The notes beneath the pieces were generated by a model. The model made no database searches and was not told the DNA's origin. It saw nothing but the letters and a program-made list of their open reading frames with translations. From contig OZ038450.1 in the NCBI GenBank assembly GCA_964036195.1, forward strand, positions 1,552,701 through 1,616,700: a DNA stretch of 64,000 bases, read 5' to 3'. This document shows, piece by piece, positions 38,499 through 64,000 of this stretch. The translations under genes were made by a program, and so were the position numbers. Positions within the stretch are counted from its first letter, which is position 1. Each line of letters starts with the position of its first letter. The DNA is from Sphaerolaimus hirsutus (Eukaryota; Nematoda; Chromadorea; Monhysterida; Sphaerolaimidae).

Positions 38499-38639
38499 AT
38501 GATGCGCTTTGGCAGCGGATGCTACAATGTGAAAGAAGTGGAAGTTATAAAAGAGACTGATGCTAATCGGGCGCACGGCAAGAATATTGTGGCGAGGGTA
38601 GTGTTTTTGGACGGCAGCCAACATGATTTTGAGTTGGAG
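38499..38639 (+). CDS. Ptpmeg: Exon 1 (first coding exon), residues 1-47
   Basis: Begins MMRFGSGCYNV and ends with VVFLDGSQHDFELE. An in-frame TAA at 38454-38456 lies upstream; the first in-frame ATG after it is 38499, immediately followed by a second at 38502. The out-of-frame ATG at 38494 is ignored. Relatives begin with a similar arginine/aromatic stretch followed by YNV, which supports this start. Donor GAG|GTTTGA at 38640, phase 0. Intron 1 is 468 bp and unremarkable. Confidence 0.85.
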
Positions 38640-41600
38640 GTTTGATTTTTGCAAGATTTTTCTTTTTTGGAATGACTGCTTTTTTGAAATTTTCTGGGTC
38701 AATTTATTTTTCAGATTAGGTTTTCTGAACTGAAATATTTTGATGCATTTTGTCGGAATTCGGAATATTTACTAAATTAGCAGCTGGTATATTTTTCAGA
38801 ATATTTACATGTCCTATTTATTCGCTGTTTTTATTAGCCATTTAACAAAAAAATGGCGAGATAATGGTACTCATAAATTCGGTAAATGGAGTTTGACAAA
38901 CGTTACAATGCCTAAATCTTTGAAACACCCCCACGTGTATGAAAGCAAGACCAAAAACTTACTGAATATGCATACCTAATCTTCAAAAAACTTCTCAAAG
39001 TATCAACGCACACAATTTCACCACGTAAAACCTCGCTCCCCATACCCATACAACAAACCTTTCACCACAAAAATACTCGAAAAAATACCCGCCACCCCCA
39101 AATACAGCGCCACGCGCCCGGCTGCACTCTCCTAGATTTAGTCTTCACGCACTTAGAACTGGTGGAACGGGATTATTTCGGTCTTCAATTCGTGGAAATT
39201 GTTGCCGATGGGGAGCCTAGACCCGAGCGTTGGCTCGATGCCAGCAAAGGCGTCAGGAAACAGATGCAGTGTGAGTTTTGTGGTTGTGTTATTTTTTTGG
39301 TTTGATTGAAATTTGTGCAATTGTCATTTTGAATTATTACTTAACGTGTTCCCTTGAAATGCCGTCAGCGGGTTTATTTTTTTTAGAAAAATGACAAATA
39401 ACTTCCAGTGAACTGAGAGTCCAGCTGTAGGTAGATGAGCTCGGCTTAAAGACTATACAATGCTAATGAATGTGCCTATTTCCCAGATCTCTCATTCGAT
39501 TTGCACAAATTGCAATTTGCACAAAACTCAAATTGATTTGCTCAGGCACAATAAATAATGCCCATTGACCAAATAATTTACCACCATTAAAGCAGTCAAT
39601 TTTTCCATCGCAGGCCCGCCATACACACTTTATTTTCGAGTGAAGTTCTACGTTTCCGAGCCGGCCAAACTTTTGGAAGAGTACACCCGCTATCATTTTT
39701 ACCTCCAAGTGCGAAAAGATTTGTTGGATGACAAGTTGCAGGCGCCCGAATCAAATTGTGCACTTTTGGCTTCTTTCGCCGCTCAGTGTGAGTTACGGGC
39801 TCGGTTTTTATGTGAATTTTTGTTTTGCCTCTGAGGGCAGACCCAGGGACGTAGCCAGGAGTTTTGTGCGGGGGGGGGGGCGGATTGTATACGGAGCCCG
39901 GCGAACGGGGGGGGGCGACGCCCCCCTCACGTTTGACCCCTGAAGGAATAGTGCCTTGGCGCCAGCGCCATTCGTAGGCGCCACGCCATGGCGCCAGTGG
40001 CGTTGGCTTTCGCGCCAAATCCTGCTGTAAATACATGTATGTAATTTACATAAACACCTTCCCGGACAAGTTCACCACCCATTTTTTTCTTTCACTTCGA
40101 ATGCAATATATCCGTCCATGGGGGTGTTATAAAGCCGAAACTTTGTATATATAAAGTTGTAAGACCCCTCTACTCCCCAACAATGGGGGAGGTGCGGCGA
40201 CTCACTACAGGGTGGGTCGCCCTATATGCAACAATTTTTTTGGCGCTTTTGGTGTCCCAAACAAGTTCACCACCCACTTGATTGGCTACACTACGAGAGC
40301 CATATCTCCAGCTGTGATGGCGGTATAAAGCTGAAATTAGGGGGATTGGAAAAATGTTGCAACAACATACCTAATATAAAACTGAATTGGGTTGGAACAC
40401 TATTTCAGCCAAAAAATTTTTTTTCAGTAGGGCACCCACCTTGTCCCATAAACAGTAGAATGAAAATTTCACTTTAAACCATTTTTTTGTTTCACACTTA
40501 CAAAGTTGGTTTACAAAGTTCACTAGAGAATGGTCAAAGGTTCAAAGTTATGTAAACAACATAACCTCTTAAATGCCTCCATAAGGAAATTTACTTGGGG
40601 TGATTTCTATGAAGTCAAAATGATGTCATTTCAGGAACAAAATTTGACACAATTTTCACTTTTTCATTCACCCCAAATAAATTTCCTTATGGAAGCATTT
40701 TAGAGGTTATGTTGTTTACATAACTTTGAACCTTGGACCCTCCCCTAGTGAACTTTGTAAACCAACTTTTTAAGTGTGATACAAAAAATTGGTTAAAAGT
40801 GAAATTTTCAGTCTGCTGTTTATGGGACAGGGTGGGTGCCCTACTGAAAAAAATTTGATGAGCAGAACTAGAGTTCAAATCTGATTCAATTTTATATCAG
40901 GTATGTTCTCACAACATTTTTTTGTAATGCAGTTGAATGGCGAACTTGTTTGGGACACTTGGGCTGTTCTTAAAAAAATAATCAACTTTATATGCAGTGA
41001 CCCATGCTTTAGTGGGTCGTCGGCAGCCGCCCCACTGGTGTATTGTGAGGGGAGTTGTTGGCAAGACATCCCCCAAATTTCAACTTTCTACTGCCCTCAC
41101 AGCTGGAGATATAGCCTTCAAAGTGTAGCTAATCAAGTGGGTGGTGAACCTGCTTGGGACAACAAAAACGCCACAAAAAATGTTGCATATAGGGTGACCC
41201 ACCCTGTAGTGAGTCGCCGCACCTCCCCCATTGTTGGGGAGTAAAAGGGTCTTAAAACTTTATATATACAAAGTTTCAGCCTTATAACACCCCCATGGAC
41301 GGAGATATTGCGTTAGAAGTGAAATAAAAAAATGGGTGGTGAACTTGTCCGGGAAGGTGTTTACATGTATAGCGTCGAGGACATATTTTGGGTGCTTTTT
41401 TGTCGTAAGCTATAGTTATGAATGAAATATACTGTACGACGTCGAAATGCGCGGAAGTGCCATTTCTCGCACATTTTTTGTCCGACCCGGGAAGGGGGGG
41501 GGGGGCGGCCGCTCCCCCGCCCCCCTGGCTACGTCTTTGACCAGACCCTGTAAAATGCCCCGTAATATTTCGTGTCACGTAATGCAATGTGTCAATTCAT

Positions 41601-44600
41601 GTAAAGTACGCTGGAAATGGCAAACGGGTTTGCCATTTCACAAACCATTTTACATGACTTACATGACTCACAAGACACTACATGACTTTTGATATTTTAC
41701 AAGGTATGGAAGGGGCACTTGATTGATAAAACAATCATCCTGTTGGTCTGGCTCCGCACTTTTTCAAGTGACGAGAAGAAAGTAATAAGTGACGTTGAAT
41801 GCAGGGTTCAAATCGGATTGGGTTTTCGGAATCGGGATGAGATTTTCAGAAGTCTGAATTGTGATCGGGATCAGACTGAAAAAAACCCGGTCTGTACCCA
41901 ATTCCGAATCGGAATAACACTGTTGTTGTTGTTGCATTTTTCAGTTGTCGGGCTATTGAAATGGCGTTAAAAATCGGAAGCGGGCATGGAAAGTCCGCCA
42001 TTTTGTTGAATGTGATAATGAGTTGTTGGCAATGTCCAGTCACTTTTCTATGTTGTAGAGTTCTCTCTACCATACGCGTGGTAACTTAGGTCTCAACGTT
42101 CGTGGTTAAATTTAAAAAACCGCAGCTGAATTCGGCGACTACAGTTTCGACGAAATGGGCGAGTCTTATCTAGACGCAGTAAAGTACATTCCCAATCAAA
42201 CCCAGGCATTTCTTAACAAGGTCATGGAGCTACATAAAATGCACGTGTGAGTGAAAGTTCTATTTTTAAAAAAATTAGCCATTCTAAAAACGGACAATTT
42301 AAAAAACCGCCGTTCTTACACTCTTTTTACAGTGGACAAACCCCAGCCGATGCGGAATACAATTTTCTGGACCATGCGCGCAGATTGGAAATGTATGGCG
42401 TCGACTTGTACGACGCCAAGGTTCTAAATTCTTCCCTATTTGTTCCTTTTCAGGTTTCTCTCTCCTAAAAAATCCCTGCCTTTCAGGATTCACAAGACGC
42501 GACCATTTCCGTTGGCGTGGCGAGTTTTGGAGTTTGCGTGTTCAGAAATCAGCTGAAAATCAACGTGTTTTCTTGGTCGAAAATCATGAAGATTAGCTTC
42601 AAAAGAAAGCAGTTTTTTATTGAAGTCAAAGTGGATGAGGTGAGTAGTTTAAATGTTGGCAAATTAAATTCATTCAAATCCACAGTTTTCTGTTGAATGG
42701 TATTGCACCCTGTAAAGGCATGGCTTATTGATGTTTGATTCGGTACAATTTTTCGGCAATGGGAAAAATGATTTACCAATAATTTCGATTTCCGTTTTTA
42801 AAAAAATGGTTACGATGCCTGCGTCTTTTGAAAACAACACTTTTGAAAACGTTGAAAAATGCGCCGACCAACCCTACCATAATTGCACATCACCGACTTT
42901 ACAAATCCTATTCTGCACACGCAAACCCCCAAAAACTTCTCTTCACCCCCGCAGTCCAAGCCGGCCACCCTGATCGGCTTCACGCTGATATCGACGCGTC
43001 TCTGCAAGCTCCTATGGAAGGCTTGTATTGAGCACCACACATTTTTTCGTTTGATCGCGCCGCCGCCGCAGCAGCAAACGAGGTCGCTGTTTTCACTCGG
43101 CAGTAGGTATAGATTCAGGTGGGTTATGGTAGTGGGTTGGGTTATGGTATTTTACACTTGGATTGAGTGGCTGTGTTTGGTTGCGCTGTAGGTTTAGGGA
43201 AAGTTGTCTTGTCTGAATGTTATACTTGATGTATAATGTCACCTCTGCACACACGAGTTTACTACTGAAATTTGACAATCTTATGTTAACATGTTAATTT
43301 AAGAGGTTTATGTGTTCTTGTAGATAAGTTTGATAGGTTCAAGTTCAAATGTTATTTTTAAGTACCTAAATACATTGAGTTTTGCAAAATCCAATGATCA
43401 AGACCGACTAAATTTGCAAACACAAATTCGTGAATATTTATGCATGCGTTAACCATCGCTATAAGCTTAACAGTGACTAATAATGGTGATAGGCACTTTG
43501 CAAGCCGCCATTCACGTTTCAATGGATTTATTGGTCTTGCGCGACTTTACTATAACTGAACTTTACTGCTAACGCATTTTTTCTAATAGAATAGCCCGCT
43601 TCTATTTTTTCGTGAACTTTTTTACCCGCCCTCTATGAGAGACGCCCTTGTATTGGAAGCCGCCGTTCTATTTTTGTCATTGATTTCAGCCGGTGTTTTC
43701 AAGTGCTGCCAAGGTTTTTCAAGGTGTTACTTCACAGATTCATCGAGTGTCAATTCAAATGACGATTCGTAGAATAAATTCACCAAACATTTGATATTAA
43801 AATAGGTATACTCGGCGTACATGATACTCTGCCATCGCACTGATTTATGTCTCGTGTTGGAAGCGTGCCAATGATTGTTAAGTCATGCGATTTCCGTAAA
43901 AAGATGAAAAAATTCATCGATGTGAATATGTTAATGAATAACATTACAACAACAATCAATTTTGTCATCTTTTTATGTACGCGCATGCGCTAACCATCGT
44001 TGGCACACTTCCAGCGGGAACCACGCGTGCAGGGTGTAAAGTAACCGGAGTATAGCATCAAATCAATGGACCAAAGCCAAAATAACAGCATCCACTGGCA
44101 TTTAAATTTTTTATGCATTTGTCACAATTCCAACAGTTTTTGACCCTTCTATTTGAGACCCGCCCTTCTATTAGTATAAATACGGTATCGTAAAATGTAA
44201 ATTCCACTTGAAATTCTGACTGCTTGTATATTTGTTTTGCACCTGAAAATTCCCCAGTGGGAAGCATATGAAGTATTGTTTAAGAGTGAAAACTTGTTTC
44301 ACGCTAACACAAAACTTGTACGTTTCCCAAACACTGTTATATTAGTTTTTAGATAGTTTTGAATGGCAGACAATTACCAATTTTTCTCGTTCTCACTAAC
44401 ACACTGAGAGATGCAAAAAAATTGAGGTGCAAATTATATTTTATGTATTTACCGGGTGTTTGGTGGAACTGGGAAAATTTGTTTTCTGTTTGAAAAATGA
44501 TGAAAATATCACATACCAATATATTCATATTTTTATCACCTTTCTCTCTCGAAAAATCTAAAATTTTCGTGCCTTAATGTGACTAGTGATGCAAAAAGCG

Positions 44601-47600
44601 CCAGGACTTTGGCGCCAAGCCCCAAAAGCGCCATGGCACTTTTTGGAACCCCAGCGCCAAGCGGAAATGGCGCAAGAGCAAAATGGCGCCAAGCGCCAGA
44701 AGCGCCATGGCGCTTTTTGCTTTGGCGCTAGCGCCAAGCGTCAATGGCAACACAGTAAAATATCGCCGAAAGCGCCAGGATGCTTTTTCCTTTGGTGCTA
44801 GCGCCAGGCGCCAGCGCCATGGACCTTTTCCATCACCAAATGTGACTTCGTTGGCAAATCTCAAACACTTATCATATCAAATATTTGGGAACAATATTTG
44901 ATATCGACGCCATAATATCGGGGTTTCGTATCGAATATGAGGAATTTTGTAATTTGGGCATTTTCGAAATATTTATACAGAAAATGTTGAAAAGATATGG
45001 CTATCACAAAACTGAGAAATTTCAACCGTTTCAACCAACCTGTAGGGGAGACAATGCCATTAATTGTTTTTAATGATATTTAACTTTTATGAGACAATTT
45101 TTAAGCGTGCTCCTATAGAAAAGTATTTAAATTTCACGTGATTTGAACATTTTTTGAACTCTTCATTAGAATTGCAAAAATTTCCGACAACCACACGGCA
45201 TATTAAGAGATGCAGTTTAAGAACCATTGTGAATTTTTATGCAGCCAAAATTTGCACATGTTCGGTCATAAAAAACAGCAAAAATAACAGTTACTCCCAC
45301 ACAAAATTTTATAAAAATTTATACGATATTCATTTTCCGTATAACGTTTCCCAATTTTCCATACTGTATACTTTTATTTGTTTGTCCTGCCAAAATAGTG
45401 AAATCTGCAATCAAAAACTTGTGTAAACAAATGACATAACCATTTTCTGACAGACGACAGTGGACACAATTAAGGATAGCAAATAAAGATAAATTTTATT
45501 TATTTATTTCAAGTTGATTCAATTTTCGATTTTTTTTCACATTCAGACAAAACACTTAAAAAAATTATTAACCTTTTGAGAAAAAAGTTTGAAAATATAA
45601 GATTTGAAAACAGTTTTTGGATTTGTGAGGTGATCTTAGGCTACAAAATGTAAGTGGGGTCACCTAAATGGGGTGAAGAATGAGTAACCACACCCATAGA
45701 AACCGGGAAATTCTAGGTCTACGCATTTTGGTAAAAAATGGAAAATTTAAAAACAACAAAAATTTAAATACTTTTTAGGCATGTTGTCATCGTAAGACAC
45801 AATGCACGTATATAAATGTGTCGCCATGAAACCATACATTACCAAAAGTATTGTGTTCTAAATGAAATTGACCAAGTATTATTGTGTACAATCTAATGTT
45901 TACAAATTTGGCTAGGTAAATGTGTTTGCATTTGGAGTAAATAGAGTTCAGAGGATTATCGTTTGACTACTTATTGAGGCCAATTTATTTTAATGTGACT
46001 TCAGTCGATTTTATTTGCCTTTTGCTGCTAGATGTACAGTTGTGGAAGCGTAGTTACGTTTATCCGAAATACCAGGGTATTTTTACAGGTGTCTGTTATA
46101 GGGTTGGAAAAAAAACGTTTTTTTTAAACTCGATGTTTTTTTTTAAAAAAAAACGTTTTTTTTTAAAAGCTCCCAGATATGACCTAGTGTCAACATATAT
46201 AGGTATATAAGACACTGGCAATACTCTGTGATGTTAAATATGACCATATAATGGCTGTGGAGCCATGGGATAGCATTATAAGTGGTGATTTGTGTCAAAA
46301 ATATCCATTTTTCGTCGACATATCGTTCGTATATCGCCTTATAGTCGAATGTTCGTGACTTCAGGTAAAGTTTGGCACGGAATGGTGATCAAACAAGGTT
46401 ATAAAAGGAGGTTGTTACTTTGGGAGTGAAGTTACACACTGTGGAGGTACATGGAAGCACATTACCTCAATATTATATATTACAGCAACATATGTCGGCT
46501 TATTCACCCATGGTAGCACATAGAAATGGATGTTTTGATACTAAAAATGCAACAAAGCCAATGAAAACAACCACCAATGTCAATTTGTGTGTGAAATTCC
46601 GCGCTTGCGCGCAAAAATTTTGCAAAATACCTAGTGCTTAGTACTAAAAATTTCGGCCGATGTTTTTTTAAAAAAAAAAACATTTTGGACGTCATGTTTA
46701 AAAAAAAAAAAAAACGTTAAAAAAAAAAAAAAACGTTTAAAAAAAACATCGGCCAACCCTAGTCTGTTAATACTTTTAAGTAAACGTGTTCACTAAATAC
46801 TTTCACGTTTGGTTAACTTGTGCAATTGACGAAATATCTCTATTTTCGCTGAATCTTTTAATCAGAAAATAAATCATGTTTGATGCAATTTCGTTTCGTT
46901 TCGTTTCGTTTGTTCATTTCTGAAAACACGGAAGATACGTATGAAATAAAATCACACATAAAGTAATCACACATGCAATTTAGTTATTATCCTTTACATC
47001 TTTATTTACATTTATCAGTGTATTCCAACTTATCTCTATTTTTCCATATTTAAATACTTACAGTATCATATCAAGTCAGAAAAAGTCTTTGCATACAAGT
47101 TAACATTTTCCAAAACACACACAAAATGTACAAACTTCTACAACTGACAAAATCGAACCGACTGTATTTTAAAATTTCCTTACATTTGTAATGAAGACTG
47201 CGTTTTAAAATTTATTATTTAAAAATATGTCCATTGGTTTTCACCTGTCACTTTTCCTGTCTGTGAGAAACATTTTGTTTATCACGTTGACACCAATTTT
47301 GCTATCCTTTTTATTAGTGAGCTAAATGTTATGTCTTCTGAAGCCATTTGAATTCTTTCGGTTTAGTTGCACCTGTCCGGATGGGTGAATTTTGCTTACC
47401 GTATTTCTTTGAATAAACCCATGTGGTTTTTCATCAGGTTTTCGTGGGTAGGAGGGGGGGGGGGGTCGATGAATTACTTTTCGATTTGGGGGTAATTTTG
47501 GAGCAGTCATTTTAAGGCGCATGGTGTTATTTGATGAAATTTCAATGCTAGTCAGTTTCAGGTGAATCCAAAACTTGAGATGTGTAAATATGTAACTTCC

Positions 47601-50600
47601 ATTTTCTATTTTAGGTAGAATGTAAATCATCATATTTACATAGATTGTAAATCATCATATTTATATTTAAGTGCCCAAGAATCCCCGGAGTATGGTGGAT
47701 AAATAATGATGTATTTATTCATAGATCCTATTGGCACTTGAACCAAAGCATAATAAGTGCTCTTGAAAAGCGCTAAATCAGTGATTTTTTGAAACCTAGC
47801 ATAGCACCCCGGGGTGCTATGCAGCTGTATAACACCCCGGGTGTTGTGCACGGGGGGGGGTCCTTTACACGGAGAAATACGGTAATAAGTTGCTATCTCT
47901 GATTCCACCAGTAAAATAACATTTCACCTCCACTCATTTTTTTCAAATTCAGTTTCTTAAGTGAAGATTTACCTTAACAATTTACCTGTGAGCGTAGGAA
48001 CGATCCGAAGCAGTAATAATGAATGTCATCACCTATCGTGTGCGACTGTAAATCGATTCAAATTGGCTCTTAAAAACGCCCATTTTTGCCGTTTTTGTTG
48101 CGAAAAATGTCAATTTCGGTCGTGTTTTCTGATTCCACCTACCCAATTTTCGCGTGCTTTTAATGTCTTTCCCAGTTTGTGTAATATTGGAGCAGAAAAA
48201 AGTTGGCCGAAATTTTTACCAAGTGTCAACTGTCAATTTGATGGGCCACTGGCGGATAATGTGCGGTTTTGTGAATATTTAAGAATGAATATTTTGACAG
48301 GTTCCATTGCAAATTGAGTCATTGAGTGATGTCGACGTAGCACCGTTGGCGTTTTTTTGTCTTATTGCAAAAAAATAAAAATCGCAAAACATTATGCACC
48401 AAACGAACTATTGCGGAGACAATTTAATGTGGACAGATAAGAAAAATTGTTTCAGTGCTAAAACCTGGGGGCACTTTCATCGTAGACACTGAAAAATTCT
48501 CTGAAATGTCAGATGTCATGCAAAGTGTCTAAAGTCATGTAAAATGCCCTGGAAAATGAAAACTTGTTTGTTACCTTGACAGCTTACAGGGTGGGTCAGG
48601 CGCAAGGGTGGCACCTGTAAAGTTTTCCTCACAATTAACCACGAAAAGTAGTAACCTGCCAATTCACCAAAAATTTCATCTACAAATGTCAACTTCCCCA
48701 TCTGTGCTCATCGATATCGATATTTTTTTGCAGCGTGAATCATTTCGTTCAAAAATCGATACGTTTCACTCAATATTATACGCGCGGTGTCATTGACTTG
48801 ACGTCTAAATATAATTCAGTGCCACATTCCATTAATGGTTGTGCTCCAAGTCTTTCAAGGTTTCTTCCACTGAATGTTTTCAAATTTTTCTTCGATTTTA
48901 AGAGGTCACTTTGAAAGTTCTGGGACTTTCCGGGGGCAATTTCAGACCCTGTAAAATGTCAAATGTGATGCAAAGTGTCAAAAGTCATGTAAAATGCCCT
49001 GGAATATGGCAAAAGGATGCTCATGAGCATGACTTTAAACACTTTGCATGACATTTTACATTTTACACAAAATTTACAGGTGGTGTAGTGCCCCCAGCGC
49101 CTGACTAACGGAAACAGATTTTGTTCTAGAAAGAGAAAACGTAGGAAAGTGCTTTTGAATATAATTATATCATTTTGATTGAAAACATTATTTTCCATTT
49201 TCAGTTTCCAGAAAGAATCATTTTTGCTTTTATGCAAATAAATAGATTACCCAATTTTTATAATATTATAAATAGATAGCGCACTAATTTGTCACTGTGA
49301 GGCTAGTGCACCATTATTTCTTTCAATAATTAAAATATAAAAATTTTTGTAAATTTACCTGTGTACATTTTATCTAATTTAAAAATCAACAAATCACTTC
49401 ACAACCATCACAGCCACTCTAAACTCCAAAAAAACTATCCGAAATGCCGTACAAAAGTCTTCAGAAAATGCCATCTACCACCAATCTGAATCAACAGCAA
49501 ATGCCGAAAATTGCGATGTGGCCTAGTGAAATAAGACATGTTTTTCACACTATGACTTTACCTAGAAATAATAATTGCAGCGGGCGGACAGAATACCAGA
49601 CTTTCACGTGATTTGAACATTTTTTGAACTCTTCATTAGAATTGCAAAAATTTCCGACAACCACACGGCATATTAAGAGATGCAGTTTAAGAACCATTGT
49701 GAATTTTTATGCAGCCAAAATTTGCACATGTTCGGTCATAAAAAACAGCAAAAATAACAGTTACTCCCACACAAAATTTTATAAAAATTTATACGATATT
49801 CATTTTCCGTATAACGTTTCCCAATTTTCCATACTGTATACTTTTATTTGTTTGTCCTGCCAAAATAGTGAAATCTGCAATCAAAAACTTGTGTAAACAA
49901 ATGACATAACCATTTTCTGACAGACGACAGTGGACACAATTAAGGATAGCAAATAAAGATAAATTTTATTTATTTATTTCAAGTTGATTCAATTTTCGAT
50001 TTTTTTTCACATTCAGACAAAACACTTAAAAAAATTATTAACCTTTTGAGAAAAAAGTTTGAAAATATAAGATTTGAAAACAGTTTTTGGATTTGTGAGG
50101 TGATCTTAGGCTACAAAATGTAAGTGGGGTCACCTAAATGGGGTGAAGAATGAGTAACCACACCCATAGAAACCGGGAAATTCTAGGTCTACGCATTTTG
50201 GTAAAAAATGGAAAATTTAAAAACAACAAAAATTTAAATACTTTTTAGGCATGTTGTCATCGTAAGACACAATGCACGTATATAAATGTGTCGCCATGAA
50301 ACCATACATTACCAAAAGTATTGTGTTCTAAATGAAATTGACCAAGTATTATTGTGTACAATCTAATGTTTACAAATTTGGCTAGGTAAATGTGTTTGCA
50401 TTTGGAGTAAATAGAGTTCAGAGGATTATCGTTTGACTACTTATTGAGGCCAATTTATTTTAATGTGACTTCAGTCGATTTTATTTGCCTTTTGCTGCTA
50501 GATGTACAGTTGTGGAAGCGTAGTTACGTTTATCCGAAATACCAGGGTATTTTTACAGGTGTCTGTTATAGGGTTGGAAAAAAAACGTTTTTTTTAAACT

Positions 50601-53600
50601 CGATGTTTTTTTTTAAAAAAAAACGTTTTTTTTTAAAAGCTCCCAGATATGACCTAGTGTCAACATATATAGGTATATAAGACACTGGCAATACTCTGTG
50701 ATGTTAAATATGACCATATAATGGCTGTGGAGCCATGGGATAGCATTATAAGTGGTGATTTGTGTCAAAAATATCCATTTTTCGTCGACATATCGTTCGT
50801 ATATCGCCTTATAGTCGAATGTTCGTGACTTCAGGTAAAGTTTGGCACGGAATGGTGATCAAACAAGGTTATAAAAGGAGGTTGTTACTTTGGGAGTGAA
50901 GTTACACACTGTGGAGGTACATGGAAGCACATTACCTCAATATTATATATTACAGCAACATATGTCGGCTTATTCACCCATGGTAGCACATAGAAATGGA
51001 TGTTTTGATACTAAAAATGCAACAAAGCCAATGAAAACAACCACCAATGTCAATTTGTGTGTGAAATTCCGCGCTTGCGCGCAAAAATTTTGCAAAATAC
51101 CTAGTGCTTAGTACTAAAAATTTCGGCCGATGTTTTTTTAAAAAAAAAAACATTTTGGACGTCATGTTTTAAAAAAAAAAAAAACGTTAAAAAAAAAAAA
51201 AAACGTTTAAAAAAAACATCGGCCAACCCTAGTCTGTTAATACTTTTAAGTAAACGTGTTCACTAAATACTTTCACGTTTGGTTAACTTGTGCAATTGAC
51301 GAAATATCTCTATTTTCGCTGAATCTTTTAATCAGAAAATAAATCATGTTTGATGCAATTTCGTTTCGTTTCGTTTCGTTTGTTCATTTCTGAAAACACG
51401 GAAGATACGTATGAAATAAAATCACACATAAAGTAATCACACATGCAATTTAGTTATTATCCTTTACATCTTTATTTACATTTATCAGTGTATTCCAACT
51501 TATCTCTATTTTTCCATATTTAAATACTTACAGTATCATATCAAGTCAGAAAAAGTCTTTGCATACAAGTTAACATTTTCCAAAACACACACAAAATGTA
51601 CAAACTTCTACAACTGACAAAATCGAACCGACTGTATTTTAAAATTTCCTTACATTTGTAATGAAGACTGCGTTTTAAAATTTATTATTTAAAAATATGT
51701 CCATTGGTTTTCACCTGTCACTTTTCCTGTCTGTGAGAAACATTTTGTTTATCACGTTGACACCAATTTTGCTATCCTTTTTATTAGTGAGCTAAATGTT
51801 ATGTCTTCTGAAGCCATTTGAATTCTTTCGGTTTAGTTGCACCTGTCCGGATGGGTGAATTTTGCTTACCGTATTTCTTTGAATAAACCCATGTGGTTTT
51901 TCATCAGGTTTTCGTGGGTAGGAGGGGGGGGGGGGTCGATGAATTACTTTTCGATTTGGGGGTAATTTTGGAGCAGTCATTTTAAGGCGCATGGTGTTAT
52001 TTGATGAAATTTCAATGCTAGTCAGTTTCAGGTGAATCCAAAACTTGAGATGTGTAAATATGTAACTTCCATTTTCTATTTTAGGTAGAATGTAAATCAT
52101 CATATTTACATAGATTGTAAATCATCATATTTATATTTAAGTGCCCAAGAATCCCCGGAGTATGGTGGATAAATAATGATGTATTTATTCATAGATCCTA
52201 TTGGCACTTGAACCAAAGCATAATAAGTGCTCTTGAAAAGCGCTAAATCAGTGATTTTTTGAAACCTAGCATAGCACCCCGGGGTGCTATGCAGCTGTAT
52301 AACACCCCGGGTGTTGTGCACGGGGGGGGGGTCCTTTACACGGAGAAATACGGTAATAAGTTGCTATCTCTGATTCCACCAGTAAAATAACATTTCACCT
52401 CCACTCATTTTTTTCAAATTCAGTTTCTTAAGTGAAGATTTACCTTAACAATTTACCTGTGAGCGTAGGAACGATCCGAAGCAGTAATAATGAATGTCAT
52501 CACCTATCGTGTGCGACTGTAAATCGATTCAAATTGGCTCTTAAAAACGCCCATTTTTGCCGTTTTTGTTGCGAAAAATGTCAATTTCGGTCGTGTTTTC
52601 TGATTCCACCTACCCAATTTTCGCGTGCTTTTAATGTCTTTCCCAGTTTGTGTAATATTGGAGCAGAAAAAAGTTGGCCGAAATTTTTACCAAGTGTCAA
52701 CTGTCAATTTGATGGGCCACTGGCGGATAATGTGCGGTTTTGTGAATATTTAAGAATGAATATTTTGACAGGTTCCATTGCAAATTGAGTCATTGAGTGA
52801 TGTCGACGTAGCACCGTTGGCGTTTTTTTGTCTTATTGCAAAAAAATAAAAATCGCAAAACATTATGCACCAAACGAACTATTGCGGAGACAATTTAATG
52901 TGGACAGATAAGAAAAATTGTTTCAGTGCTAAAACCTGGGGGCACTTTCATCGTAGACACTGAAAAATTCTCTGAAATGTCAGATGTCATGCAAAGTGTC
53001 TAAAGTCATGTAAAATGCCCTGGAAAATGAAAACTTGTTTGTTACCTTGACAGCTTACAGGGTGGGTCAGGCGCAAGGGTGGCACCTGTAAAGTTTTCCT
53101 CACAATTAACCACGAAAAGTAGTAACCTGCCAATTCACCAAAAATTTCATCTACAAATGTCAACTTCCCCATCTGTGCTCATCGATATCGATATTTTTTT
53201 GCAGCGTGAATCATTTCGTTCAAAAATCGATACGTTTCACTCAATATTATACGCGCGGTGTCATTGACTTGACGTCTAAATATAATTCAGTGCCACATTC
53301 CATTAATGGTTGTGCTCCAAGTCTTTCAAGGTTTCTTCCACTGAATGTTTTCAAATTTTTCTTCGATTTTAAGAGGTCACTTTGAAAGTTCTGGGACTTT
53401 CCGGGGGCAATTTCAGACCCTGTAAAATGTCAAATGTGATGCAAAGTGTCAAAAGTCATGTAAAATGCCCTGGAATATGGCAAAAGGATGCTCATGAGCA
53501 TGACTTTAAACACTTTGCATGACATTTTACATTTTACACAAAATTTACAGGTGGTGTAGTGCCCCCAGCGCCTGACTAACGGAAACAGATTTTGTTCTAG

Positions 53601-54120
53601 AAAGAGAAAACGTAGGAAAGTGCTTTTGAATATAATTATATCATTTTGATTGAAAACATTATTTTCCATTTTCAGTTTCCAGAAAGAATCATTTTTGCTT
53701 TTATGCAAATAAATAGATTACCCAATTTTTATAATATTATAAATAGATAGCGCACTAATTTGTCACTGTGAGGCTAGTGCACCATTATTTCTTTCAATAA
53801 TTAAAATATAAAAATTTTTGTAAATTTACCTGTGTACATTTTATCTAATTTAAAAATCAACAAATCACTTCACAACCATCACAGCCACTCTAAACTCCAA
53901 AAAAACTATCCGAAATGCCGTACAAAAGTCTTCAGAAAATGCCATCTACCACCAATCTGAATCAACAGCAAATGCCGAAAATTGCGATGTGGCCTAGTGA
54001 AATAAGACATGTTTTTCACACTATGACTTTACCTAGAAATAATAATTGCAGCGGGCGGACAGAATACCAGACTTTGGAAGATATGAAGCGAAGGGCGAGG
54101 GTTGATCGGACATTTAATCG
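38499..54120 (+). CDS. Ptpmeg: Ptpmeg/PTPN3-PTPN4-like tyrosine phosphatase, 5' part (FERM domain; 8 spliced exons, 3'-incomplete)
   Basis: Exons 38499-38639, 39108-39270, 39614-39787, 42126-42246, 42333-42420, 42487-42639, 42955-43118 and 54052-54120 join in frame to about 357 residues. The product matches, from my knowledge of the family, the N terminus of PTPN4/PTPN3: FERM lobe F1 about residues 28-105 (RDYFGLQF, RWLDASKGVRKQ), F2 about 106-225 (LLEEYTRY, LLASFAAQ, EFGDY, IPNQ, GQTPADAEYNFL), F3 about 226-320 (KISFKRKQFFIE, LWKACIEHHTFFRL), then the FERM-adjacent start (SLGSRYRF, SGRTEYQ). EEYTRY, LLASFA and KISFK-KQFFI favour PTPN3/4 over protein 4.1. These cytoplasmic phosphatases use FERM for membrane/cytoskeleton attachment, then PDZ and PTP domains; neither of the latter is visible here, so catalytic ability cannot be judged. 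All introns are GT-AG. Fly Ptpmeg symbol used by family; orthology is inference. Confidence 0.93.
39108..39270 (+). CDS. Ptpmeg: Exon 2, FERM F1 lobe, residues 48-101
   Basis: Acceptor AATACAG at 39101-39107. The exon encodes GCTLLDLVFTHLELVERDYF, then GLQF and RWLDASKGVRKQMQ, the most conserved part of the F1 lobe. It ends one base into a codon at a consensus donor, GTGAGT, at 39271. A GT two bases earlier is also possible, but only 39270 keeps the frame into exon 3 (split codon TGC, Cys). Intron 2 is 343 bp. Confidence 0.92.
39614..39787 (+). CDS. Ptpmeg: Exon 3, FERM F1/F2 boundary, residues 103-159
   Basis: Acceptor CATCGCAG. Encodes PPYTLYFRVKFYVSEPAKL, LLEEYTRYHFYLQVRKDLL and LLASFAAQ, close to the PTPN4 sequence in order and spacing. 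Donor GTGAGT at 39788, phase 1; the split codon with exon 4 gives Ser (AAQ-S-EFGDY), as in relatives (VQSELGDY). Intron 3 (39788-42125, 2,338 bp) holds a 1.7-kb hAT-like insertion. Confidence 0.95.
39844..41539. mobile_element. CAGGGACGTAGCC hAT-like element in intron 3
   Basis: CAGGGACGTAGCCAGGAG at the left, CCTGGCTACGTCTTTG at the right, G/C-runs just inside; flanks GGCAGACC and ACCAGACC match at 6 of 8 positions. It lies within a TGTAAAATG MITE: GGGCAGACC on the left rejoins CTGTAAAATGCCCCG on the right. The interior contains a GGCGCC tract (39955-40015) and the large foldback 40044-41368. Confidence 0.75.
40044..41368. repeat. 1.3-kb foldback inside the intron 3 element
   Basis: The two halves are inverse copies about a centre near 40650. 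Landmarks: CACCTTCCCGGACAAGTTCA to TGAACTTGTCCGGGAAGGTG, GGGGGAGGTGCGGCGACTCA to TGAGTCGCCGCACCTCCCCC, ATATCTCCAGCTGTGA to CACAGCTGGAGATAT, and TAAATTTCCTTATGGA. It would form a long hairpin in the unspliced transcript. Confidence 0.9.
41540..41720. mobile_element. TGTAAAATG-family MITE, right part
   Basis: ACCCTGTAAAATGCCCCGTA at the left; TTGATATTTTACAAGGTATG and AGGGGCAC at the right. Its left tip is GGGCAGACC on the far side of the 1.7-kb insertion. Confidence 0.7.
41802..41912. mobile_element. Decayed TAGGGTTCAAACGGGA-type copy
   Basis: GCAGGGTTCAAATCGGATTG with TCGGGATGAGA / GATCGGGATCAGA repeats. The right end is not recognisable. Confidence 0.45.
42126..42246 (+). CDS. Ptpmeg: Exon 4, FERM F2 lobe, residues 161-199
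   Basis: Acceptor ACCGCAG at 42119-42125. Encodes EFGDYSFDEMGESYLDAVKY, then IPNQTQAFLNKVMELHKMH. Donor GTGAGT at 42247, phase 2; the split codon with exon 5 gives Val. Intron 4 is only 86 bp. Confidence 0.94.
42333..42420 (+). CDS. Ptpmeg: Exon 5, FERM F2/F3 boundary, residues 201-229
   Basis: Polypyrimidine tract and CAG at 42321-42332. Encodes GQTPADAEYNFLDHARRLEM then YGVDLYDAK; the family has a G-(L/Q)-(S/T)-PAEAE-(F/Y)N pattern here. The donor AAG|GTTCTA is weak, but it gives an in-frame join (phase 0) over a 66-bp intron 5 ending CTTTCAG. Translation through intron 5 would stay open for some codons, so intron retention could mislead a gene predictor. Confidence 0.9.
42487..42639 (+). 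CDS. Ptpmeg: Exon 6, FERM F3 lobe, residues 230-280
   Basis: Encodes DSQDATISVGVASFGVCVF, RNQLKINVFSWSKIMKISFK and RKQFFIEVKVDE. The W-x-KI-x-KISFK-x-KQFFI pattern is the phosphotyrosine-binding-like F3 core of PTPN3/4. Donor GAG|GTGAGT at 42640, phase 0. Intron 6 is 315 bp. Confidence 0.94.
42955..43118 (+). CDS. Ptpmeg: Exon 7, end of FERM and FERM-adjacent start, residues 281-334
   Basis: Acceptor CCCCCGCAG. Encodes SKPATLIGFTLISTRLCKL, LWKACIEHHTFFRL, a PPPQQQ linker and SLFSLGSRYRF. Phase-2 donor AG|GTGGGT at 43119. Joined to exon 8 this gives SRYRF-S-GRTEYQ, matching the family's GSKFRY-(C/S)-GRTE-x-Q. Intron 7 is 10,933 bp, the largest visible, and carries the tandem duplication. Confidence 0.93.
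43571..44187. mobile_element. TTCTAATAGAA TIR element containing a TACTCGG MITE
   Basis: Left TTTTTTCTAATAGAATAGCC, right CTTCTATTAGTATAAATACG then GTA; CCCGCC and TTCTATT motifs at both sides. The TACTCGG MITE 43809-44052 is inserted in the middle. Lies in intron 7. Confidence 0.65.
43809..44052. mobile_element. TACTCGG MITE, 244 bp, TA-flanked
   Basis: TA|TACTCGGCGTACATGATAC and GGTGTAAAGTAACCGGAGTA|TA. TTGGAAGCGTGCCAATGATT and CGTTGGCACACTTCCAGCGG form the inner pair. Confidence 0.92.
44584..44838. mobile_element. TAGTGATG hAT-like MITE, 255 bp, perfect 8-bp TSD
   Basis: Ends TAGTGATGCAAAAAGCGCC and CTTTTCCATCACCA; AATGTGAC duplicated at 44576-44583 and 44839-44846. GGCGCC arrays fill the interior. 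In intron 7, 300 bp before the duplicated unit. Confidence 0.95.
46099..46761. mobile_element. TAGGGTTGG hAT-like element with poly-A/T tips, perfect 8-bp TSD
   Basis: TAGGGTTGGAAAAAAAACG and GGCCAACCCTA; GTCTGTTA duplicated at 46091-46098 and 46762-46769. Subterminal runs of T and A around ACGTT form hairpins. The 73-codon frame inside is not recognisable. It is duplicated with the tandem unit at 50569-51231. Confidence 0.93.
47397..47884. mobile_element. CCGTATT-family element with a CCCCGGGGTG inverted repeat
   Basis: TA|CCGTATTTCTTTGAATAAAC and GGAGAAATACGG|TA. The centre has GCATAGCACCCCGGGGTGCTATGC-type symmetry (about 47798-47821) followed by ACACCCCGGGTGTTGTGCAC. Second copy at 51867-52355. 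Confidence 0.75.
48467..48620. mobile_element. TGTAAAATG-family MITE
   Basis: GGGGGCACTTTCATCGTAG, AGATGTCATGCAAAGTGTCT and TACAGGGTGGGTCAGGCGCA, ending GGTGGCACC. Duplicated at 52938-53091. Confidence 0.65.
48932..49096. mobile_element. TGTAAAATG-family MITE
   Basis: GGGGGCAATTTCAGACCCTG at the left, TTTACAGGTGGTGTAGTGCC then CCC at the right; GTGATGCAAAGTGTCAAAAG and the inverse AACACTTTGCATGACATTTT. Duplicated at 53403-53567. Confidence 0.8.
49581..49604 (+). pseudogene. Truncated exon 8 copy at the duplication breakpoint
   Basis: The acceptor and first 24 bases of exon 8 recur here with the same upstream 4.4 kb. The sequence then jumps to the start of the duplicated unit, so the frame reads SGRTEYQTFT and stops at TGA 49609-49611. 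If exon 7 spliced to this first-encountered acceptor, the protein would end after the FERM domain. The GTGATT at 49608 might act as a weak donor, but the result would lack most of exon 8. Confidence 0.8.
50569..51231. mobile_element. TAGGGTTGG hAT-like element, second copy through segmental duplication
   Basis: Identical to 46099-46761 except one base in an A-run; the flanking GTCTGTTA copies are also duplicated. Not an independent insertion. Confidence 0.93.
51867..52355. mobile_element. CCGTATT-family element, second copy through segmental duplication
   Basis: Matches 47397-47884 with one additional G in the G-run near 52330. Not an independent insertion. Confidence 0.75.
53915..54051 (+). 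CDS. Possible alternative 5' extension of exon 8 (uncertain)
   Basis: From ATG 53915 the frame is open for 46 codons and runs, without splicing, into the true exon 8 frame (NNN-C-SGRTEYQ). The nearest upstream in-frame stop is TAA 53891. The peptide starts MPYKSLQKMPSTTNLNQQQM and has no domain I recognise. It could be an alternative first exon giving a FERM-less isoform, or chance. The same frame exists in the upstream copy at 49444 but hits a stop there. Confidence 0.2.
54052..54120 (+). CDS. Ptpmeg: Exon 8, FERM-adjacent region, residues 336-357
   Basis: Acceptor AATTGCAG at 54044-54051. Encodes GRTEYQTLEDMKRRARVDRT then FN, plus two bases of an Arg codon, with donor CG|GTTTGT at 54121. 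PTPN4 has a basic, similarly spaced segment ending VFAR here. A partial copy of this exon lies 4,471 bp upstream (49581-49604). The reading frame is also open upstream to a Met at 53915, through the acceptor. No later exon was found up to 64,000. Confidence 0.85.
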
Positions 54121-54727
54121 GTTTGTGGGGCGACTTATTTTATTTTTGGTGTGATGGAATTGGCTTTGGCAGTTTGTTTTTGGCGGTTCGATTTTTTCTT
54201 TAAGCGGCGTTTACACTGCAAAATGTGCCGACAAATCAAAAAGTGAAAAAGTTCCATAAATCCGGAATAAAGTTCCATATCTGCGAGAAAAAACAGTGAA
54301 GTATACTCACTAGTTAAGTGCACTCACATACCAAATTTCAGATAAATCGGGCTTTTAGTTTTAAATTTATAAGTATTTGAAAAATTTGACGTTGTCGGTT
54401 TGCTTTTTTTGATCGAAAAAATCTTGTTGTCGGCACAAGCTTTTGATTGGCGACAATGCGACGATGAGCGCTTGTCGTCACAAGAAAAAAAATGTTGTCA
54501 TGTGAACCTTATTTTTGTTGTCGATTGTCGCCACGAGCTGCGAACGTGTTTTTTTCAATTTTTTTGTGACGACAATGAGTAAATTTTACAACAGGTGCTG
54601 AAGTTTACCACAGTTGCTTATTTAAGTGTGTGAGCAAGTAGTATATAGTGAGTGATAGGGGGGGGTAGTGCATGTACCATATTACCTAGAATTATCACCC
54701 CCTTGAATTGATCCTCCTCGAAATACC

Positions 54728-55201: not shown

Positions 55202-55414
55202 GTCATGGTTGGCGCTTTTTGGCGCCATTTAAAATGTCGGCGCCAGGCGCCAATAGCGCCACAGAATAATGGCGCCATGGCGCTTTCTCAGATCACGGCG
55301 CCAAGCACCAATGGCGCCAATGCGTTTTAGCGCCAGGCGCCAAAAGCGCCATGGCGCTTCTTGCTTTGGCGCTAGCGCCAGGCGCCAGCGCCAGGGCGCT
55401 TTTCCATCACTAAT
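55202..55414. mobile_element. TAGTGATG/GGCGCC hAT-like copy, left end lost
   Basis: The right end GCGCTTTTCCATCACTA is intact; the left starts directly with GGCGCTTTTTGGCGCC. The 118- and 123-codon frames over it read the palindromic array on both strands and are not genes. Confidence 0.75.
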
Positions 55415-55528
55415 TGGACTGCTAAATGTCGGCACAAAAAAATTAAAAAAAACACGTTCGCAGCTTGTGCCGGCAATGTGCCAACAAAGTGACACAAGGC
55501 ACATGCGACTGTCCTCGTTTTTGCGCGA

Positions 55529-57427: not shown

Positions 57428-58315
57428 TACCGTATTACCTCGAATTATCCCCCCTTGAATTAACCCCCCCCCCTCGAAATACCCCCCCCCCCCCCCCCTA
57501 AACTTCGGCTGAGGAAATAATTAACCCCCCCCCCCCCTCGAAATACCCCCCTAAAATTGAGTGTAACGTGAACGTACATGACAAATACCGCAGTTTGTGA
57601 TCTGTACTATGCAGAACACACGTTAAAACTGATGATTAAGTGACATTAGGGAAGGGTTTTTGTGTATATACAGTAATACCGTATTTCCTCGAAATACCCC
57701 CCCCCCCTTGAAATACCCCCCCCTCGTTTGACCACCCCCCCTCTCGGGACCACTATGAAACAATCTTCCCCCCCTCGAAATACCCCCCCAAATTGAGTGT
57801 AAAGGGAACGTACATGACAATAACTGTAGTTTGTGTTCTGTGTACTGCAGAACACACGTTAAAACAATGTCGGTGTCACGTTAGAACAGTGTACATACCA
57901 TCTACATACTAAAATTAGTCTACAGAACCTTATAAATGGCAGTTTTTGTTGCATTTTTCGACGTCTGCGTACGTTTCAGACAACAATTTTGTACTTGGTT
58001 TTCAAAAATTTTCTTGTGAAGTAATAACCCCCCCTCGAAATACCCCCCCCCCCTTGTTTAACCCCCCCCCCCTCTCGGGACCACTATGAAACAATCACCC
58101 CCGGGGGGTATTTCGAGGAAATACGGTATATGCCTATAAACACATATAAATCTATGTGATTGTTCGATTTTTCTACGTCTGCGTATGTGGAATCTCCAAA
58201 AATTTCAGGCAAAATAATAGACCCCCCTCGAATAAACCCCCCTTGAATTATCCCCCCTCAAATTTTGCTGGCGAAATAATAAACCCCCTGGGGGTACTTC
58301 AAGGTAATATGGTAT
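57428..58315. mobile_element. CCGTATTACC-subtype element containing a CCGTATTTCC element
   Basis: TA|CCGTATTACCTCGAATTATC and GTACTTCAAGGTAATATGG|TA. Core as in 18773-19206 but split after TATATACAGTAA by 57677-58128. It is inserted into a TAGTTGTTAAAA-type fragment (57391-57427). Confidence 0.85.
57677..58128. mobile_element. CCGTATTTCC element, nested
   Basis: TA|CCGTATTTCCTCGAAATACC and GTATTTCGAGGAAATACGG|TA. Nearly the same sequence as 58591-58962 over the core (GGAACGTACATGACAATAAC and GACGTCTGCGTACGTTTCAG). Confidence 0.9.
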
Positions 58316-58590
58316 GCAATTGAGCACAGTTTTTGTAAAAAAAGCTAAGCTCTCAATCACAAACTGAAAATTTGGTGCCATTTTCAAAATTTTAGCCATC
58401 ATTTTCAGTGAGAAAAAAAAGTTTTATGGTGTTTGTTTGTATGGGCCAATTAATCTTCAATACTATCTTAATAGAAATCTAAAATATCATATTAATAGAT
58501 AATGTCAAGCAGAAGTTATGAATTTTCAGCCCAAAAATGATGACTTTTAACTTTGATCATTTTTTTCAGTAGCAAGATGACATTTCCAGT

Positions 58591-58962
58591 TACCGTATTT
58601 CCTCAAAATACCCCCCCCCCCCAAATTGAGTGTAAAGGGAACGTACATGACAATAACTGTAGTTTGTGTTCTGTGTACTGCAGAACACACGTTAAAACAA
58701 TGTCGGTGTCACGTTAGAACAGTGTACATACCATCTACATACTAATATTAGTCTACAGAACCTTATAAATAGCGGTTTTTGTTGCATTTTACGACGTCTG
58801 CGTACGTTTCAGATGACAATTTCGTACCTGGTTTTCAAAAATTTTCTTGTGAAATAATAACCCCCCCCCTTGAAATACCCCCCCGCGTTTAACCCCCCCC
58901 CCCCTTCTCGGGACCACTATGAAACAATCACCCCCCGCGGGGTATTTCGAGGAAATATGGTA
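58591..58962. mobile_element. CCGTATTTCC element
   Basis: TA|CCGTATTTCCTCAAAATACC and GTATTTCGAGGAAATATGG|TA; close sibling of 57677-58128. Confidence 0.9.
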
Positions 58963-59072
58963 TATGCATGGAAGGAAATTTGAGTTTCTATATATGGAGA
59001 TTCCAAATCCGTGATAAAAAAGCAACAAAAATTTTTGACATAGGTTTGGTCCTTACACAAAGGGAGTCTTAA

Positions 59073-60094: not shown

Positions 60095-60582
60095 TTCAAG
60101 GGAATACGTGATTCACGGGGGTAATTCGAGGCGGTAGGTGATTCACGTGGGGGGGTAATTTGAGGGAATAGAGGTAATTAAGGCGGGGGGGGGGTAATTC
60201 GAGGGAATAGAGGTAATTCACGCGGGGGGATAATTCAAGGTGGTAGATAATTCACTTCAGGGGGGTAATTAGAGGCGGTAGGTAATAAACGACGGGGGGG
60301 GGGTAATTCGAGGCAATAGAGTTAATTCACGCAGGGAGGGATAATTCGAGGTAGGTTATTCACGCGAGGAGGGATAATTCGAGGCGGTAGGTAATAAACG
60401 CAAGGGGGGTAATTCGAGGGAAAATAGGTAATTCACGCGGGGGGGGGGATAATTCGAGGCGGTAGGTAATTCACATGAGGGGGGGATAATTCGAGACGGA
60501 AGGTAATAAACGCGGGGGGGGGGTAATTCGAGGGAATAGAGGTAATTCACGAGGGGGATAATTCGAGGCGGTAGTGTCTTAC
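60095..60582 (+). repeat. G-rich tandem array of about twelve 35-45-bp units
   Basis: Units combine a G-run with (T/A)AATTCGAGG, then either GAATAGAGGTAATTCACG or CGGTAGGTAATAAACG, partly alternating. The AATTCGAGG-A(A)TA words resemble CCGTATT element tips, so the array probably arose from one. Minus-strand translation gives a false repetitive peptide (RIIPP, ELPTASNYPPP). Confidence 0.85.
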
Positions 60583-61079: not shown

Positions 61080-62245
61080 AATCTAGCCGGCTAAAGCTGG
61101 TCGGTTGGCCTGACGCAAGTGTTTGTCGTGGCGCGGTGGTGCGTGCTTTCATCGACGCTACTGGATCGGCGGATGGCGTCGCGCTGCGGCCGGCGGCCAG
61201 CGCGGGTTGATCCAGCGCAGCTCAGCAAACACGCACGCGCACCTGCGGCTGGTGCCCGCGGCGCGGACTCACCACCGTGCACCGCTCTTGGCCCGCCCCA
61301 CGCGACTGACACGCCCTCCCGTTTGCATCGAAATATTTACATTCATATCTTGATCACTTGTCGTCCGAGTTTCGCAAATTTGCATATCAATGTCGAGCCC
61401 ACGGTGTGAATGCGCTTGCATCGCCGCCGCGGCGGCAGCTTTGCATGCAAGCTTTAGTAGGTGCACACCGCGTGCACGGGTGCCGCCGCGCACTTCCCCA
61501 GCTCGCTTCGCCGTGCGCCCGTCATGCTGCAGGCTGCGCCGGCTGCGTCTAAAGCCGCAGCTAGGTGCGCCGCCCGGCCGTGTTGTTCCAGTGTGGTGCC
61601 TTTTATCGATTGCACTCCGCCGCCGCCGCGCCGCGCCGTAGTTGCTGCCTTCAGTTGGTGCCGACCTGCGCTGCTGCAACCAACCGCCGCCCTCCCCCAG
61701 TCGCCGCGTATTGCTGCACGTATGTATATTTTTGTGTACGCGCCACGCAAGGTGGCCGCTCTTGTAAGTTTGCTTTGAGTATAGCGTCGAGCGCGGCCGA
61801 ATAGCAAAGCAGGCGAGCAGCTGCCGCGTCTTGTGTCGCTGCGTGCCCGAGTATAAATGGAATTATACTGAACCACCGTGCGTCAAATCAAGTACGCACT
61901 ACGCTGGAGCAGCGCACCCGTCCGGGCGCTGCCGACAGTCTGATAGCTCCCCCATTTGGCTTGATGGTGCGCAATGCGCGCGCCTCCTCGCCGCAGTGGA
62001 CTGTGTCGCGCGTTCCCGCTGCTCCAGCTGCGCGGCCGCGGCCGCCGCCGCCGTTGCGGCCGCTGCGCCAACGCCGCCGCGTGTCTGCTGGAGCAGCGCA
62101 GCGCTGCTACCGGTATAGTTTCACGTGCGGCCGCTGCTTTGGCTGGCCGCTTGATTCCAGAGGATTTTCCAGACGGCATATGCGACATCGTGGTGGTGTC
62201 ACCACCGACTGCCGTCGGCCGCGGCGACAAGATTGACCCGTCGGT
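61080..62245. promoter_or_regulatory. CpG-rich island, possible promoter region
   Basis: A sharply bounded GC- and CpG-rich stretch with GCCGCCGCC and GCGGCCGC clusters, unlike the flanking AT-rich DNA. GTATAAATGG at 61851 and GTATAAAT at 62395 could be TATA boxes on the + strand. All six frames stay open for long distances because stops are GC-poor; I see no recognisable protein. It may mark the promoter or first exon of another transcript or of a short isoform, or be a foreign insertion. Confidence 0.4.
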
Positions 62246-62554
62246 CGCCTGTCCTGACCATTATTTCTGTCTACTTGTTATTATAGGTATTTGCATTTAG
62301 TGAGCCTGCAACGCATGCCTGTCACATTACCGCTTATTAAACGCATTCTCTTTCGTCTATTAAATATTCATCCTCTTCTGAAGTTTTTGTTCAAGTATAA
62401 ATGCTAGCTGCGTCTTGAAATATATTGAAGTTGTTTGTAGCTAGCGACGCATTTGAAATATGTACTTCTATCAATATAAATATCGGATGTAGCTTTCATA
62501 CTACTTTCTTCTTTCATGATGAAATCCTTTCCAACATCACTAATTACGTATACT

Positions 62555-62667
62555 GCATTTCCTCTAAATATCCCCCATTGAATTACCCCACCCCTTCGAA
62601 ATACCCCCAGCTCTGAGCGAGAAAATACCCCCCCCCCCCTCGAAATACCTCCAGTCTGGAATAAGGT
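62555..62667. mobile_element. CCGTATT-family element, very short copy
   Basis: TACTGCATTTCCTCTAAATA, C-runs, CCCCTCGAAATACCTCCAG and AATAAGGTACG. Core missing. Confidence 0.5.
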
Positions 62668-62785
62668 ACGTCAAGTATGCAAGGTAAATACATGTTGTAT
62701 TTATTGATATCAATTTGCATCGCAGTTTTACGTTGATATGTAAATATAAGTATATCCTGTTAGGTCACGCTTATAACCAGCTTTG

Positions 62786-62985
62786 NNNNNNNNNNNNNNN
62801 NNNNNNNNNNNNNNNNNNNNNNNNNNNNNNNNNNNNNNNNNNNNNNNNNNNNNNNNNNNNNNNNNNNNNNNNNNNNNNNNNNNNNNNNNNNNNNNNNNNN
62901 NNNNNNNNNNNNNNNNNNNNNNNNNNNNNNNNNNNNNNNNNNNNNNNNNNNNNNNNNNNNNNNNNNNNNNNNNNNNNNNNNNNNN
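62786..62985. other. Assembly gap (200 N)
   Basis: Exactly 200 Ns, a round number, so the true gap length is probably unknown. The left half of the CAGGGGTCTC element on its right side is missing into it. Confidence 0.99.
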
Positions 62986-63678: not shown

Positions 63679-64000
63679 ACTGTATTTCCTTGAATTACCC
63701 CCCAAGGTGTTCATTTTCAGAATGGAAATTTAGGGGGAGGGTTAAACGAGGGGGTATTTCAAGGGGGGCGGTATTATTTCACCAGAAATTTCTTGAACTC
63801 CCAGTACTTATTCATTGTTTTAAATGTACTCAGATGTACAAAAATGCACAAAACCACGATGTAAAAGACTCAATAGACTTATAAATATATTTAATTATGT
63901 AGCTAGTATAAACCCTGGCATTTTACAGGGTCTAATTCATGACACATGACATTTTACACTTTACAGGGTATTTTACATGGTCTTGAACTACCTCCTGGGG
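63679..64000. mobile_element. CCGTATT-family left end and inverse copy of 54728-55165
   Basis: ACTGTATTTCCTTGAATTAC at 63679 with C- and G-runs, then the inverse of the 54.7-55.2 kb segment up to the window edge (GACCCTGTAAAATG family motif in inverse near 63918). Confidence 0.7.

Follow-up and report, generated by a model that had tools for sequence, protein, structure and literature searches.

A 4.47-kb tandem duplication, probably real and very young, with its breakpoint inside a coding exon of a putative PTPN3/PTPN4-type phosphatase gene of the nematode Sphaerolaimus hirsutus

The closest described system that was found is the partial tandem duplication of BRCA1 exon 10, a human clinical variant of 2.0 kb made up of 395 nt from the intron end and 1617 nt from the exon start; according to the available part of the report, read-through meets a premature stop after 10 residues, and the cDNA showed the duplicated stretch, including the part of the intron (PMC11839443). 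The tandem duplications and other copy-number variants (CNVs) segregating in Drosophila are, as far as the available parts of two studies describe them, young, often undiverged and bounded by simple breakpoints with short microhomology (PMC6380325, PMC4056370). False duplications created during genome assembly likewise consist of near-identical copies within one scaffold, these being marked, in the available account, by gaps between the copies, by depth that is halved or very low, or by haplotype k-mers (PMC9516828).

The locus presented here lies in a stretch of 64,000 nucleotides of S. hirsutus (contig OZ038450.1, positions 1,552,701–1,616,700), the whole of which is called the window below and to which all coordinates given without a contig handle refer. 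It resembles the BRCA1 case in that the intact exon is preceded by a duplicated acceptor with a truncated copy of the exon, but it differs in that the exon piece measures no more than 24 nt and that a donor-like site occurs in frame before the stop. It would share with the Drosophila variants a young age, next to no divergence and a simple breakpoint with a few shared bases, although those are often shorter—83.4% of one class being below 500 bp (PMC6380325)—and were called from the reads of several lines (PMC6380325, PMC4056370), whereas the phosphatase duplication rests on a single assembly. Unlike the described false duplications, it has no gap between its copies.

Comparison of the window with itself by BLASTN yielded a direct repeat in which 45132–49604 corresponds to 49602–54075 with 99.955% identity; across the 4474 columns there is a single mismatch and a single gap. 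This bears out the near-perfect 4.47-kb tandem duplication that the sequence-only reading had placed at 45132–54075. Chance could not plausibly yield 4.47 kb of sequence matching at 99.96%; of the self-matches of at least 200 bp in 134 kb of C1, no other attains 99%, the two that follow standing at 97.4%. The two copies are arranged head to tail and touch each other. Copy 1 (45132–49604, plus strand, 4473 bp) takes in most of intron 7 together with the acceptor of exon 8 and the initial 24 nt of that exon; copy 2 (49602–54075, plus strand, 4474 bp) runs on into the intact exon 8. The junction itself (49602–49604) is a TTT that belongs to both copies, i.e. the 3 bp of shared sequence claimed by the same reading, and the breakpoint is located, as had also been claimed, 24 bases into a coding exon, the first base of exon 8 being 54052 and that of its truncated copy 49581. 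Near-zero divergence between copies in head-to-tail order is what a young tandem duplication would show. A repeat rich in GGCGCC/AGCGCCA flanks the duplication at 44582–44842 and 55220–55416, the two blocks lying about 10.6 kb apart and outside the breakpoints.

The gene concerned is probably a phosphatase of the PTPN3/PTPN4 (PTPMEG) type. Its model was set by eye from the sequence, so that "exon 8" is a nominal number; it consists, all on the plus strand, of exons 1–6 (38499–42639), covering the FERM N, M and C parts, of exon 7 (42955–43118), which carries the end of the FERM C domain and the donor CAG/gtgggt, and of the intact exon 8 (54052–54120), which corresponds to the FERM-adjacent (FA) region and the 3' end of which was placed where the FA match stops. 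The families PF09379, PF00373, PF09380 and PF08736 all exceed the Pfam cut-off over the exons at 38499–43118 and 54052–54120, representing the FERM domain and the FA region. A short exon is probably missing from the model between 38639 and 39136, since a gap of nine residues opens at this point in the alignment to FERM. A search for exon 9 by a splice-plus-motif pattern gave two weak candidates, neither of them convincing. In intron 3 of the model, there is an imperfect palindrome (40350–40921; 577 columns, 84.6%) enclosed by inverted arms of 296 columns (40051–40346 and 41068–41363; 90.9%), perhaps a terminal-inverted-repeat element.

It should be pointed out that the FERM part alone does not prove a phosphatase, because among the solved structures the band 4.1-like protein 3 (253 bits), FARP2 (244) and protein 4.1 (235) are all nearer to it than PTPN3 (223). 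The assignment to a phosphatase gene, made already in the sequence-only reading, draws its support from PDZ and then PTP exons situated about 72 kb downstream of the FERM exons on the same strand (C1:1678–1682 kb), in which PF00595 and PF00102 exceed the cut-off and which match best PTPN3 (6t36_A, E 1.3e-116) and PTPN4 (2i75_A, E 3e-101). The order FERM-PDZ-PTP is the architecture reported for PTPN3 and PTPN4 (PMC2602985, available in part). The FERM and PDZ-PTP parts would belong to one transcript, with about 72 kb and one gap of 200 N (62786–62985) between the two sets of exons, the gap lying 8.7 kb past the duplication. Just before this gap, a GC-rich block (61100–62299) reaches 61–64% in 400-base windows compared with 38% for the window as a whole and is perhaps a CpG island or a promoter. 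Short repeats at 57430–58970, 60100–60570, 62540–62660 and 63680–63770, with motifs like CCGTATTTCCTCGAAATACCCCC and C- or G-runs as judged by eye, perhaps derive from a MITE-like element.

Elsewhere in the assembly, two PTP genes with near-equal PF00102 scores, C13:2517867–2519735 (minus strand) and C13:2549441–2551796 (plus strand), face opposite directions about 30 kb apart; when their loci were compared, no stretch of 300 bp matched at 98%, and the pair therefore looks like an older inverted gene pair. The 17 pairs of at least 300 bp and at least 98% identity found among 30 PTP loci, all of them at 100%, each join, to judge by their coordinates, neighbouring places of one gene and were therefore taken for overlapping cuts rather than duplicates.

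Concerning the consequences for splicing, exon 7 is followed by the copied acceptor with a 24-nt stump of exon 8 (49581–49604, plus strand), this decoy acceptor being identical to the real one over 60 upstream bases, and the intact exon 8 comes 4.47 kb later. Read on past the breakpoint, the stump gives ...SGRTEYQT-F-T-stop, so that both a decoy acceptor and a stop three codons beyond the breakpoint, as claimed from the sequence beforehand, do exist. Use of the decoy could, however, have another outcome than the stop, because a cryptic donor-like site that the sequence-only reading had passed over, CAC/GTGATT (49605–49613, plus strand), occurs in frame one codon before it. Together with the decoy acceptor, this site would bound a 27-nt in-frame exon (49581–49607) adding nine residues, in which GRTEYQT is repeated. 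With textbook donor weights, the cryptic site scores 3.8, the inferred donors of exons 1–7 scoring 2.8, 6.7, 6.7, 6.9, -0.7, 11.2 and 9.6; the donor inferred for exon 8 at 54120 scores 1.5, and it was preferred over a higher-scoring rival at 54148 (4.0) because the FA match stops there even if a longer reading is offered. Beyond the stump, the next candidate donors (scoring 2.8 at most, at 49698) come only after the stop. When the stump was joined at random to sequence of the window, an in-frame donor at least as good preceded the first stop in 11,804 of 100,000 joins (11.8%), and the cryptic donor is therefore no sign of selection.

Since the stump has no donor of its own, most transcripts would be expected to leave it out, with exon 7 joined to the intact exon 8 across an intron lengthened from 6,462 to 10,933 nt (model coordinates). 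Use of the decoy would lead to the premature stop or, less often, to the in-frame insertion of nine residues. The likely effect on the gene is thus a longer intron and some mis-splicing, the gene being left usable. A partial loss of its function is also possible, given that the duplicated stretch was kept in the BRCA1 cDNA and brought a premature stop with it, according to the available part of that report (PMC11839443). That the event amounts to the birth of a microexon by partial-exon tandem duplication, i.e. a new in-frame 27-nt alternative exon repeating the FERM-adjacent GRTEYQT and made in one step, would be a long shot.

The two differences between the copies are confined to one A-run and one G-run, exactly as had been noticed before. 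The single mismatch, A at 46700 against T at 51170, is situated at a T/A-run boundary, where copy 1 has T3A15 (46700–46714, plus strand) and copy 2 has T4A14 (from 51170); the single gap corresponds to one G at about 47852/52322, with G9 in copy 1 (47852–47860, plus strand) against G10 at 52322 in copy 2. Among the 12 homopolymer runs of at least eight bases in the unit, these two differ between the copies and ten are alike, whereas outside such runs the copies differ at none of 4349 sites. The A-run marks the edge of a dispersed repeat, and a copy of this repeat on another contig has a third T/A split; the place is thus naturally unstable as well as error-prone. This dispersed repeat occupies 46135–46727 of the unit and has a 96% inverted copy at C2:5061123–5061716 with T/A runs at its ends.

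No change in 4349 sites corresponds to a divergence below about 0.07% (95%). If the duplication is real, its age would be below about 35,000–115,000 generations, assuming rates of 1e-8 to 3e-9 per site. Such a bound agrees with the fly data, in which, as given in the available part of the study, copies without any divergence make up 1,560 of the 1,920 tandem duplications (PMC6380325). The alternative of an ancient duplication, with copies homogenised by gene conversion or preserved by selection for some part in regulation or splicing, found no direct support and would have to account for the same 0 of 4349 sites in a unit that is nearly all intron and partly a dispersed repeat; a single recent event is simpler, and an old origin is hardly credible.

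We consider it probable, at roughly two chances in three, that the sequenced animal does carry a head-to-tail tandem duplication, very young and of an ordinary kind. The junction would then be present in the DNA of the animal, and the duplication would have arisen without long homology, by end joining or by replication template switching at the TTT. The microhomology is weak evidence for such a mechanism, since at least three shared bases occur in 6.8% (and at least two in 17.7%) of 200,000 random pairs of the same spacing. Among fly CNV breakpoints, 262 of 644 (41%) have at least 2 bp of microhomology without extra bases, nearly all of them not being tandem duplications, and the breakpoint within an exon counts against a real event, as only 9 of the 644 fly CNVs overlap coding exons (PMC4056370, both figures from the available part). 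What speaks for the animal's DNA is, first, the junction, which is seamless: it contains no N—the sole N-run of the window being at 62786–62985—and the 3-bp overlap is all that the two sides share, so that a join made by overlap or by scaffolding would hardly be possible without a read holding the junction. Moreover, when the best candidates in the 348-Mb assembly were scored, the junction, the left flank and the right flank each had one full-length match, the partial matches being the two copies, and no haplotig was seen for any of these three queries. Stray haplotigs look rare, because the PTP-exon matches listed, at least 115 of them, all lie on nine chromosome-scale contigs (C1, C2, C3, C6, C7 and C13–C16). 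Between the young structural variant and the assembly duplication, the pair of alternatives that the sequence-only reading had rightly proposed, what the sequence shows favours the former without settling the matter.

The most serious competitor is a chimeric or template-switched read near a contig tip, taken into the assembly and producing a false tandem copy, which we regard as less likely, yet as a serious possibility. The contig does end at 62785, at the gap that the sequence-only reading had not taken into account, 13,181 bp from the junction and within reach of one long read; the copies differ only in homopolymers, where consensus errors fall too, and the contig set may be rather fragmented, to judge by two gaps in 254 kb. 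In the available part of one report, 69.3% of the alignments were chimeric in MDA libraries, but at most 0.81% in unamplified and PCR-amplified HiFi libraries (PMC11809032). A chimera with its halves 4.47 kb apart in direct order would, however, be a special case, and correct reads would normally outvote it in the assembler. In the sample searched for a second direct pair of at least 200 bp at 99.9% (134 kb of C1, 70 kb of C2 and 50 kb of C6), none was found, and this small sample thus gives no sign of a systematic fault. What comes nearest to such a pair is found on C2, where a direct pair of 2.65 kb at 99.06% (C2:5032128–5034764 and C2:5047393–5050030) has its members separated by 15.3 kb and another, of 156 bp, reaches 99.4%.

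False duplications of the haplotype (heterotype), homotype or scaffolding classes, in which two alleles, an uncollapsed error-bearing read or overlapping contig ends are set in tandem, are common enough, comprising 0.3–2.3% of three VGP assemblies in the available part of the survey; the homotype class, stemming from sequence errors and lacking haplotype k-mers, would suit differences restricted to homopolymers (PMC9516828). A scaffolding or haplotype error nevertheless fits poorly, because the junction is seamless, the full-length matches are unique and the other gaps measure 200 N: neither a gap between the copies nor an overlap is present at the junction, both gaps elsewhere in the 254 kb (that of the window and a second one near C2:5,062,170) are exactly 200 N long, and the 0 of 4349 sites outside long runs leaves no allelic divergence. 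This whole group of explanations is, in our opinion, very improbable.

Either way, the kind of event is already known, with one close case in the available part of the BRCA1 report (PMC11839443). If the duplication is an artefact, it should caution those who annotate the genome: gene-prediction software could report a spurious truncated exon at this place. If it is real, it would be an intragenic duplication of recent origin, joined at an exactly defined point; it could serve as a marker and would offer a natural test of how splicing handles a copied acceptor with a truncated exon.
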